DNA from: Filomicrobium sp.
GTDB taxonomy: Bacteria > Pseudomonadota > Alphaproteobacteria > Rhizobiales > Hyphomicrobiaceae
Reading direction: 5' to 3'
NCBI GenBank assembly: GCA_002689605.1
Contig: NZGY01000158.1
Coordinates: forward strand, 20,991 to 63,028
Length of the DNA: 42,038 nucleotides
Below the pieces are notes generated by a model that saw nothing but the letters and a program-made list of their open reading frames with translations, ran no database searches and had not been told where the DNA came from. Positions within the stretch are counted from its first letter, which is position 1; each line of letters starts with the position of its first letter. Shown here one piece after another: positions 24,814-28,401 of this stretch. The translations under genes and the position numbers were made by a program.

Positions 24814-25023
24814 TAGTCGCCTGTGGCTTGCGAAACCACCCTAACCAATTGAATGAATTCTGCTTTTCCCAAGAACCTTTGACTGGGCATACTGATTAAT
24901 CCAGTATTCACTGAGGCTGTGCAATTGGTGCATACGTAGAAAACTTAGATTGACTGTCCCGATTCCAGAGATTTTTGCTCCAATCATGAACCTTTCCCGA
25001 AATCACGGCGACCTACTCAACGG

Positions 25024-25614
25024 ATGGCGCCGAAACAGCGCCGAGACCTGACGATGAGCGGACCATCAGACACCGATCTCATCAAACGTATCGCCAACCA
25101 GGACCAGACTGCGGTCGAAGTTCTGTATGGGCGATATCAGGTCCGGGTGTTCCGGTTCATCCTGAGGTTGGTCAAATCCGAGGCTGTTGCCGAGGAACTG
25201 GCCAACGAGGTGTTCATGGAGGTTTGGCGCAATGCATCGCGCTTCGAAGGACGATCATCGCTGTCGAGTTGGATTTTGGGCATCGCCCACAATCGCTCTA
25301 TCAGCTCGCTGCGTAAGCGGCGTGAGTCCGAAATGGATGACGATGCAGCGGGCGCCATTCCTGATGATGCAGACAACCCGGAAGTCGTCGCACAGAAGAC
25401 CGACAAAGGTGCACTCCTTAGGGCGTGCATGGAGCGGCTCTCAGACGAGCACAAGACGATCATTGATCTCGTTTACTATCACGAGATATCGATTGCCGAA
25501 GTGTCCGAAACGATCGGTATCCCACAGAACACCGTCAAGACGCGCATGTTCTATGCGCGGAAGAAGTTGTCAGAATTCTTGATGGAGGCAGGTGTTGACC
25601 GCGGCTGGCCATAA
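25024..25614 (+). CDS. ECF-type RNA polymerase sigma-70 factor
   Basis: LIKRIANQDQTAVEVLYGRYQVRVFRFILRLVKSEAVAEELANEVFMEVWRNASRFEGRSSLSSWILGIAHNRSIS region 2 and IAEVSETIGIPQNTVKTRMFYARKKL region 4; alternative start at 25054. Confidence 0.93.
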   Translation: MAPKQRRDLTMSGPSDTDLIKRIANQDQTAVEVLYGRYQVRVFRFILRLVKSEAVAEELANEVFMEVWRNASRFEGRSSLSSWILGIAHNRSISSLRKRRESEMDDDAAGAIPDDADNPEVVAQKTDKGALLRACMERLSDEHKTIIDLVYYHEISIAEVSETIGIPQNTVKTRMFYARKKLSEFLMEAGVDRGWP

Positions 25615-25657
25615 TTGAACGTAAGATCAAATGGTTGCCGTTGCACACGGAAGCGCA

Positions 25658-26350
25658 ATGACCGATACGATCGAAAAATTCTCCGAGCGCGAAGAGATTG
25701 AAATGCTCTTGCCATGGTACGAGTCCGGCACACTTGATCCTGCCGACTTCGAACGCGTGGAACGCTATCTCGAGGCACATCCTGAGATGCAATCACAGCT
25801 TGAGCTTGTCGGGGATGAGCGGTTTGAAACGACCATTGCCAACGAGATGCTGGGTGCTCCATCACCAGGTGCGCTCGACAAACTGCGCGCATCCATTGCA
25901 GCTGAAACGCCTGCACCATCTCGCCTTGCTAGTGCCGGCAAGAGCATTTGGCAGGAAATTGCAAACCTATTCACAAGCCCGACTCCTCGTGCCGTGCAGT
26001 TTGCCGGCATCGCGGCCGCGCTGGTTCTGATGCTTCAGGCCGGCGTGATCGGTAGCCTCTGGCAGACGCCAACGAGTGGTGGTGCTCCGCAAGGGACATA
26101 TGCAACCGCCAGCGGTGAAGAAGGCAAAGGCTTCAGCGTGATTGTGCGATTTGCACCGACGGCCACGACTGATGCAATCGCAAAAGCCCTCAGCCCCCTG
26201 AGGGGTCAGATCATTTCTGGTCCTAAACCAGGCGGCATGTTCGAAGTCAAATTTGAGCTGGAAAAAGACAGTAAAGAAGCTCGCACTGCTGTAATCGAAC
26301 AACTCAAGTCGAACAAAACATCAGTCTTGCTCGTTTTGCCGAAGGGTTAA
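25658..26350 (+). CDS. Membrane anti-sigma factor-like protein with a C-terminal extracytoplasmic domain
   Basis: Directly downstream of the ECF sigma; EEIEMLLPWYESGTLDPADFERVERYLEAHPEMQSQLELV anti-sigma-like N-terminus; TM FAGIAAALVLMLQAGVIGSLW; C-terminal alpha/beta domain. Confidence 0.8.
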   Translation: MTDTIEKFSEREEIEMLLPWYESGTLDPADFERVERYLEAHPEMQSQLELVGDERFETTIANEMLGAPSPGALDKLRASIAAETPAPSRLASAGKSIWQEIANLFTSPTPRAVQFAGIAAALVLMLQAGVIGSLWQTPTSGGAPQGTYATASGEEGKGFSVIVRFAPTATTDAIAKALSPLRGQIISGPKPGGMFEVKFELEKDSKEARTAVIEQLKSNKTSVLLVLPKG

Positions 26351-26478
26351 CCTTCCTTCGCGATTATCTGGTAAGATTTTTTCTGTTATGATGGAGAATA
26401 TTCTGTCGTATTGATCAGCGAACGTATGTTTTGCAGCACAATACGGTAGCCCAGGCCCATTTAACGAAAGTGAAGGCC

Positions 26479-28401
26479 ATGCGTCAGCTCAAAGCCATTA
26501 GTTTCAGTGTTTTCGTTCTAGTTGCCACTTTGATTTGGCAGGGTAGCGCAATTGCAGCCGTCACAAACCGCACTCCGGACGGCATTGCTGCAGAAAAGAT
26601 CGGCTCAGTAAGCCCCTATCTCAAAATTCTTGAAAGCAAGACTTCGAAAGAGAATTTGGTCCGCGTCGCTGGCGACAACGGCAGATATGGCAAGTCCGGC
26701 GGTCGAAGCGGTGGCGGCGGCGTCGCGATTGGCGTCGGCATCGCCGTTGGCATTGCTTCTATCAGCGCCATCCAACGGCAGAAAGAGGCTGAGCGACGCA
26801 AGAAGGCGCGCGATCGCCGCCGTGCCCGCGCAAAAAAAGCTCGGGAGAAGAGGCGCCAGCAGGCTGCGCGCAAAAAGAAGCGCGAAGAACAACGCCGCAA
26901 GGCCGCCGCCAAGCGTAAGCGTGAGCAGGCTAAGAATCGCCGTCTCGCTCGTGAACGCGCACGCAAAGCACGTGAGCGGAAGGCACGCCTGGAGGAACAG
27001 CGTCGTCAGCGTGAAGAACAGAACAGAGTTGCAGACCGCTACCCTAATGACAAAGAAACGGGTCCGGAACATAAGGGTGAAGACCGCAAGCCGGGCGTAC
27101 AAATAGGTATTACGGTACCGGTGGTCCCGCTGCCTGGTGTTGATACGCGTGAACCTGTCATTCCACCTGAAGATGCCAATCCGCAAAGTCCTCCGCGCAA
27201 GTTTGGCCAGAACCCACCTGCGCGCCAGCAGCCGCCATTGCGGTCTCCGCCGCCGGCTCCGGCTGTTGCTGCCGCGAACGATCTTTATTGGCCGCGCGAA
27301 GTCGTTGTCGAAATCGACCGGTTCCAGCCCTCATCGGCCGATGAGGCAATTGCTCAGGACTACAGCATTAGCCGTTTGTCCAGTGACACAAATGCTTTGA
27401 TTGGAAGTCGGTTTGTTCACTACCGGATTCCCGATAGCCGGACAGCTGACAGGGTGATTGCTGCTCTGCTGAACGATAACCGCGTCTTGTTCGCTCAACG
27501 CAACAATCGCTATGTGGTGAACCAGCAGGGCTATACAAAAACTGCAGCGTCTTCAGGCCTGCAGTACGCGCTGGCCAAAATCAGACTGGCAAGCGCGCAT
27601 GCGGTAGCACAAGGCCAAGGCGTTAGAGTTGCCGTTATCGACTCAGGCATTGACCGGGAGCATACGGATCTTAAGCAAGGAATTACTGCTCACTACGATG
27701 CAGCGCCTAAGAAAGGCGTCGCCATCGACGCGCATGGTACGGCTATCGCCGGCATCATTCGCGCCAATGGTCTGGCCAAAGGTGTTGCGCCGCAAGCCGA
27801 CATCCTATCTGTACGCGCTTTCTACAAAGAGGCCAGTCAGAAGTCAGCACATTCGAGCACAATCATCCTGCTTCGCGCGATGGACTGGGTCGCCGCCAAG
27901 CGCGCGAATGTGGTCAATATGAGTTTTGCCGGTGCGAAAGATCCGTCACTTGGACGGGCTATCGACAAGCTGCTTGAGCGCAAGGTTCATCTCGTTGGCG
28001 CAGGTGGCAACAACGGACCTGACGCACCAGAAGCATTTCCAGCTGCGTATGATGGTGTGATTGCGGTTACGGCGACAGACACAGACGACAAGCTCTATAC
28101 AAAGGCCAACCGCGGTAAGTACATCGAACTTGCAGCTCCCGGCGTTGATGTGTTCGTTGTTGCACCTAAGGGCACCCACAGCTTCTCAACGGGTACGTCC
28201 ATGGCAGCGGCGCATGTGTCAGGGCTTATCGCGCTTATCGTGCAGCAACGCCGCAATATCGATCAGCAAGCGGTGAGAAGCATTCTGACCTCCACCGCAA
28301 TAGATCTCGGTAAGCCTGGTTATGATGCCGAGTATGGTGCTGGTCGCGTTGATGCGCAGGCGCTGATACAGGCTGGTACCAAGACGCTGGCTGGCAAGTA
28401 A
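26479..28401 (+). CDS. S8 family serine peptidase (subtilase) with signal sequence, Arg/Lys-rich segment and prodomain-like region
   Basis: VAVIDSGIDREHTDL (Asp), DAHGTAIAGII (His), FSTGTSMAAAHVSGLIAL (Ser); N-terminal FSVFVLVATLIWQGSAIAA. Confidence 0.92.
   Translation: MRQLKAISFSVFVLVATLIWQGSAIAAVTNRTPDGIAAEKIGSVSPYLKILESKTSKENLVRVAGDNGRYGKSGGRSGGGGVAIGVGIAVGIASISAIQRQKEAERRKKARDRRRARAKKAREKRRQQAARKKKREEQRRKAAAKRKREQAKNRRLARERARKARERKARLEEQRRQREEQNRVADRYPNDKETGPEHKGEDRKPGVQIGITVPVVPLPGVDTREPVIPPEDANPQSPPRKFGQNPPARQQPPLRSPPPAPAVAAANDLYWPREVVVEIDRFQPSSADEAIAQDYSISRLSSDTNALIGSRFVHYRIPDSRTADRVIAALLNDNRVLFAQRNNRYVVNQQGYTKTAASSGLQYALAKIRLASAHAVAQGQGVRVAVIDSGIDREHTDLKQGITAHYDAAPKKGVAIDAHGTAIAGIIRANGLAKGVAPQADILSVRAFYKEASQKSAHSSTIILLRAMDWVAAKRANVVNMSFAGAKDPSLGRAIDKLLERKVHLVGAGGNNGPDAPEAFPAAYDGVIAVTATDTDDKLYTKANRGKYIELAAPGVDVFVVAPKGTHSFSTGTSMAAAHVSGLIALIVQQRRNIDQQAVRSILTSTAIDLGKPGYDAEYGAGRVDAQALIQAGTKTLAGK

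Follow-up and report, generated by a model that had tools for sequence, protein, structure and literature searches.

The anti-sigma factor encoded in the Filomicrobium sp. window (the whole stretch of 42,038 nucleotides that was analyzed) carries a C-terminal domain (CTD) for which the evidence supports a distant relationship to subtilase prodomains, or as a minimum a match in fold, and likewise a genetic tie to an adjoining, active-site-intact subtilase. From these findings, a three-gene module is proposed in which the subtilase would act as the site-1 protease, guided by the tailless prodomain-like CTD to cut a linker motif of the anti-sigma factor ahead of an RseP-type cleavage, a reading that we consider to have an even chance of being correct. 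The trio of ECF sigma factor, anti-sigma factor and S8 subtilase genes is consecutive, in that order, on the + strand of the window, with the following features:

24987..25012, + strand: putative autoregulatory ECF promoter, TGAACCTTT-N12-GCGAC (leading T included), upstream of the sigma gene
25024..25614, + strand: ECF sigma factor, 196 aa, with Pfam Sigma70_r2 and Sigma70_r4 above cut-off
25631..26350, + strand: anti-sigma factor with a cytosolic N-terminal domain, one transmembrane helix, a periplasmic linker and the prodomain-like CTD
25994..26062, + strand: transmembrane helix of the anti-sigma factor, VQFAGIAAALVLMLQAGVIGSLW, read off the sequence, a hydrophobic segment that is aligned in relatives
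26099..26113, + strand: anti-sigma linker motif YATAS ([YF]xTA[ST]), a candidate site-1 cleavage site
26132..26347, + strand: prodomain-like CTD, beta-alpha-beta-beta-alpha-beta, from profile, model and Pfam evidence
26479..28401, + strand: secreted S8 subtilase with a signal peptide, a Gly-rich and Lys/Arg-rich linker, a prodomain and a catalytic domain
27298..~27522, + strand: N-terminal prodomain of the subtilase, from AlphaFold2, Foldseek and alignment to pro-subtilisin E
27511-27522, + strand: predicted self-cleavage site of the subtilase, P4-P1 = Y-V-V-N, from the prodomain end aligned to pro-subtilisin E
27613..28344, + strand: catalytic domain of the subtilase, Asp/His/Ser triad and oxyanion Asn intact, in columns invariant in 36/36 sequences

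The sigma factor has sigma-70 regions 2 and 4 only, as expected of the ECF type, and scores 268.6 bits against the NCBIfam subfamily PRK12515 (cut-off 236). The anti-sigma gene, which adjoins it, starts at ATG 25631 and stops at 26350, the start at 25658 used in the earlier note being an internal ATG. Its product was matched to no Pfam family when the whole protein was searched, and its match to the NCBIfam model 'anti-sigma factor' (E 4e-8) is below cut-off; the N-terminal cytosolic part and one transmembrane helix give it the layout of a membrane-bound anti-sigma factor. Relatives of this protein, also adjoining a sigma gene, were found in 51/199 genomes of the order.

The subtilase gene runs from ATG 26479 to the stop at 28401, in a frame that is open from TTG 26431, and its assignment to the S8 subtilases follows from the match to PF00082 (E 3.5e-42), the intact catalytic triad, the signal peptide and the prodomain. 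A signal-peptide-like N-terminus is present in the window and in relatives. In the window, a long Lys/Arg-rich, coil-like stretch (26709-27060) follows a Gly-rich hydrophobic segment; linkers rich in Gly, Pro or Cys, unrelated to this stretch, are found at the same position in relatives, and therefore this linker changes fast. The hydrophobic segment and the basic stretch after it had raised the candidate of a cytoplasmic subtilase, which was rejected in view of the signal peptide of the relatives and their variable linkers, an exported subtilase being the predicted location that is consistent with the relatives. Apart from the trio subtilase, the window genome has a single S8 match (L246:3441-4817, G000:C9), which is split over two open reading frames by an in-frame TAG, scores weakly with the S8 profile of the trio and is probably a decayed S8 gene.

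The genomic co-conservation that the earlier note had proposed as a check was found among order-level loci, among loci retrieved with the CTD alone and among named genomes. Of the order-level loci with sufficient flanking sequence, 38/38 have the sigma factor, the anti-sigma factor and an active-site-intact subtilase together on the same strand (two further loci, cut by a contig edge, are outside this count), the subtilase being downstream in 36 of them, with a gap of at most 110 nt in 35/36, and upstream in two. The full trio is present in 77/80 named genomes, the other three being MAGs from Xanthobacteraceae that are related to one another. When the CTD profile alone was searched against 399 genomes of the phylum, an S8 gene was found to adjoin the CTD in 28/30 loci, including some with a strongly diverged sigma factor and anti-sigma N-terminal domain; for sigma homologs without the CTD, an S8 gene was found in the flanks of 0/29. 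In one complete 8.0-Mb relative, the sole S8 gene of the genome is the subtilase of the trio operon. Additionally, there are four loci (L114, L125, L139 and L232) at which the anti-sigma factor retains both CTD and linker motif although its gene has no subtilase gene in the vicinity; in the genome of L232 the only S8 protein is not matched by the prodomain profile, and one further CTD locus (L233) is in a genome without any S8 gene. The partial correlation of divergence was 0.39 for the CTD and S8 compared with 0.33 for the anti-sigma cytosolic domain and S8, with overlapping bootstraps, and a specific co-divergence of CTD and S8 was set aside as not separable from co-inheritance.

The relationship between the CTD and the prodomain was captured at the level of families rather than of single proteins. 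When the two window proteins were compared by BLASTP, the CTD and prodomain aligned with 28% identity over 60 aa (E 0.097), so that this single pair of sequences is only suggestive, and neither of the family HMMs retrieves the other family, because of which the CTD, judged on sequence, is an old relative that has diverged far rather than a recent duplicate of the adjoining prodomain. Direct BLASTP and single-HMM searches were rejected as proof of kinship for being too weak, and searches of PDB sequences with the anti-sigma factor and with the CTD profile matched no prodomain. When profiles built from 40 CTDs and 37 prodomains were compared with hhalign, a collinear alignment over 63 of ~75 columns was obtained (Prob 91%, E 1e-6, score 34.0), compared with scores of at most 16.0 for 300 column-shuffled decoys and 11.5-12.0 for reversed profiles. 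Profiles from disjoint halves of the loci gave Prob 82-92% over 63 columns, and windows from the S8 catalytic domain and the anti-sigma N-terminal domain, used as a specificity control, gave Prob <7%. The Pfam family of the fervidolysin N-terminal prodomain (PF22148) was matched by 13/40 CTDs at E<=1, two of which exceed its gathering score of 21 (L053 at 23.9 and L044 at 21.5), and by 18/36 S8 segments in hmmscan; the CTD of the window itself has no PF22148 match. SPOR, another ferredoxin-like fold, was matched by 5/40 CTDs (best E 9e-5, in a CTD outside those examined in detail), with scores of 12.6-15.2 bits against a cut-off of 21 in the CTDs examined in detail. PF22148 is the Pfam family matched by the largest number of CTDs, and among the CTDs examined in detail SPOR is the weaker where both match.

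Structure prediction gave the same order of elements for both domains. The AlphaFold2 model of the CTD (pLDDT 81) is strand-helix-strand-strand-helix-strand, the fold of the prodomain family, and the prodomain in the subtilase model, docked on the catalytic domain (pLDDT ~93-95, pTM 0.93), repeats this order, so that the possibility of unrelated folds raised in the earlier note was not borne out. With the subtilase model, the best Foldseek match in the PDB is unprocessed pro-subtilisin E at full length (376 columns). With the CTD, 12 of the top 50 matches are subtilase prodomains, pro-enzymes or the inhibitor POIA1, none of the matches reaches E<=0.001, and those to prodomains are at E>=0.028, which is not significant alone. 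Other ferredoxin-like folds score alike; because NapD (the second match, with the best TM-score), ACT domains and RRMs are also returned, the modeled fold of the CTD is by itself not decisive for kinship with prodomains. That the likeness is convergent, a common small fold reached with neither shared ancestry nor a functional link, would agree with these non-specific fold matches, with the E value of the window pair and with the lack of a match when one family is searched directly with the profile of the other, yet we judge it quite improbable given a collinear profile match that survives shuffled, reversed and disjoint-set controls, a Pfam family common to CTDs and S8 segments, and the near-perfect genetic linkage of CTD and S8. 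The resemblance that the earlier note had drawn between the anti-sigma C-terminus and the adjoining prodomain therefore holds at the family and fold level (hhalign, PF22148 and AlphaFold), while most of the shared letters on which it had been based, RF.P....(D/E)AIA, vary among relatives, with F alone invariant in the CTD family.

The two domains differ at their C-terminal ends. Counted from the start of beta-4, exactly 8 residues remain before the chain of the CTD stops in 30/40 relatives, whereas a prodomain, according to the alignment to pro-subtilisin E, needs 13 residues from this point to reach P1. The C-terminal tail by which members of the prodomain family reach the active site is therefore lacking from the CTD, which, because its chain ends about five residues short, looks like a prodomain body kept for docking and not like an active-site plug. 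Of the prodomain mimic suggested previously, the distant relationship or fold match is supported and mimicry at the active site is not; control by exchange of protease and prodomain, with inhibition, fits a CTD without a plugging tail less well than docking or presentation of a substrate. The suggested self-contained, protease-linked module is likely, because the CTD is related to prodomains and is tied to the adjoining active-site-intact subtilase.

Inhibition could also be imagined as a means of tethering, in which the CTD would inhibit the mature subtilase and hold it at the inner membrane, control would be exerted by binding and not by cleavage, and the anti-sigma factor would sense the level of free protease or of a competing exported substrate. 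The prodomain-like fold would suit such a role, inhibitors made of a single I9-type domain are known (the Foldseek matches of the CTD include POIA1, 1itp, and a POIA1-subtilisin complex, 1v5i, is present in the PDB), and feedback would be natural given the operon-like arrangement of sigma factor and subtilase. We nevertheless find this alternative unlikely, since the residues to fill the active-site cleft are missing in the same 30/40 relatives and the conserved linker motif would be left unexplained.

Cleavage in the linker, as the docking reading proposes, is suggested by this motif. The periplasmic linker is variable apart from [YF]xTA[ST], and a looser form, [YF]x[TVLISA]A[STG], is present in the linkers of 46/58 representatives, compared with a mean of 2.9 and a maximum of 9 for shuffled linkers. 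The predicted P4 residue of S8 self-cleavage is Tyr or Phe in nearly all S8 proteins (for example Y-x-L-Q and Y-E-L-N, with Y-V-V-N in the window), and because of this shared aromatic P4 the linker motif is a candidate scissile site. In most clades the P2/P1 residues of the linker (TA) are unlike those at which the S8 protein matures, which are often LQ. From the A-T-A|S of the window, cleavage of the motif by signal peptidase, known from RsiP, was considered and rejected, since AxA is not conserved: position -3 is occupied by Q, E, R or K in relatives.

The promoter of the trio was also conserved and was found beyond the locus. GAACC-N16-CG[AT]C is located upstream of the sigma gene in 49/58 non-redundant loci at a spacing of exactly 16, where 0.37 would be expected, and the same two elements at other spacings occur in 0-3 loci. 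In pattern searches over 20 trio-bearing genomes, the longer form TGAACCTTT-N12-GCGWC gave 66 sites, compared with 1 for the reversed control (L276-L333). Besides the sigma factor, the open reading frames behind this promoter include ones for repeat-rich RTX-like proteins, a VWA-like protein, large surface proteins and small secreted proteins, all annotated by eye, and a crude signal-peptide rule was positive in 22/47 promoter-proximal open reading frames vs. 145/1076 at random positions. Because the promoter precedes the sigma gene and many genes for exported proteins, the sigma factor probably drives expression of its own operon and of exported proteins. Promoter targets other than the trio show no stable linkage with the locus. 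In the window genome, a second perfect promoter precedes a gene for a 1227-aa exported protein (L333:1156-4836, G000:C110) with no convincing Pfam family; the C-terminal Cys-rich repeats of this protein (CPRGTVGKYPNCRR) resemble those in the N-terminal linker of the L041 subtilase, and a relative of it adjoins the trio divergently in L054.

The breadth of this predicted regulon bears on whether the subtilase is merely one output gene of the sigma factor, with the CTD serving as a ferredoxin-like (SPOR- or NapD-like) sensor of another ligand. The placement of the promoter before many other exported-protein genes would agree with such a sensor, as would the SPOR matches in 5/40 CTDs (below cut-off in those detailed), the high rank of NapD in Foldseek and the CTDs kept at S8-less loci. 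This explanation is nonetheless rather unlikely in our view: PF22148 is the family matched by the largest number of CTDs, with weaker detailed SPOR scores where both match, the CTD profile alone leads to S8 neighbors at 28/30 loci, and the other promoter targets have no stable linkage comparable to that of the subtilase.

For the module with the subtilase as site-1 protease, the gene order and its conservation, the prodomain-like CTD, the intact triad, the truncated tail, the linker motif, the promoter and a genomic M50 site-2 protease gene (PF02163, E 2.9e-71, a 412-aa open frame) form the observed basis, from which we infer docking, cleavage at the motif, the direction of control and the signal. 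The ECF sigma factor would be held by the single-pass anti-sigma factor, and the subtilase would be exported and then mature by losing its prodomain. The CTD would dock on the subtilase at the seat of the prodomain without filling the active site, and this docking would position the linker motif, [YF]xTA|[ST], for the active site. A site-1 cut at the motif, followed by an RseP-type site-2 protease, would release the sigma factor, which would transcribe the operon that encodes it, subtilase gene included, together with a group of genes for exported proteins; the signal would probably be subtilase freed from exported substrates or from the prodomain it carries. The CTD loci without a subtilase, the lack of a clearly CTD-specific co-divergence, the non-significant Foldseek matches and the P2/P1 residues of the linker, in most clades unlike those of the maturation site, weigh against this mechanism.

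It is already known that anti-sigma factors are cut by site-1 proteases. As in RseA-DegS-RseP and RsiP-SipP-RasP (PMC8844934), the anti-sigma factor here is single-pass with a periplasmic domain and an M50 site-2 protease is encoded in the genome; in contrast to these systems, the role of site-1 protease would fall to a secreted subtilase whose gene adjoins that of its substrate, and the substrate bears a domain resembling the prodomain of that protease. In the mammalian S1P-SPRING-SREBP pathway, a subtilase also makes the first cut that frees a membrane-tethered regulator, a likeness that is a functional analogy only, and the S1P prodomain is where a partner exerts its effect: SPRING, a separate protein, displaces the inhibitory prodomain, whereas here the prodomain-like part would sit in the substrate itself (PMC11231238). 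With subtilase prodomains (PF22148 of the fervidolysin type, I9 in subtilisin) and POIA1-type inhibitors, the CTD has in common a domain of ~75 residues with the beta-alpha-beta-beta-alpha-beta fold, and some of its relatives match the same Pfam family (PF22148), but it is placed in trans, on a membrane anti-sigma factor, and is without the C-terminal active-site tail. ECF54 sigma genes likewise have conserved peptidase neighbors, including subtilases, but that group is described as working without an anti-sigma factor (PMC8999054), in contrast to the transmembrane anti-sigma factor with a prodomain-like CTD found here. The literature search found no description of the sigma/anti-sigma/subtilase trio, although the 2021 ECF reclassification may list such a neighborhood, no bacterial subtilase described as the site-1 protease of an anti-sigma factor, and no anti-sigma ectodomain described as related to the prodomain of a neighboring protease.

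Overall, the trio may represent a version of the S1P pathway in bacteria, with a tailless prodomain-like domain in the substrate itself: an anti-sigma factor would recruit a dedicated subtilase through its prodomain-binding face and be cut in the adjacent linker, so that maturation of the protease would be directly coupled to the transcription of exported proteins; we offer this broader view tentatively, at somewhat less than even confidence. If true, it would provide a simple rule to pair orphan secreted subtilases with signaling partners, would name a testable cut site, promoter and regulon, and would explain a conserved, unnamed domain in many alphaproteobacteria, including Bradyrhizobium, Hyphomicrobium and others.
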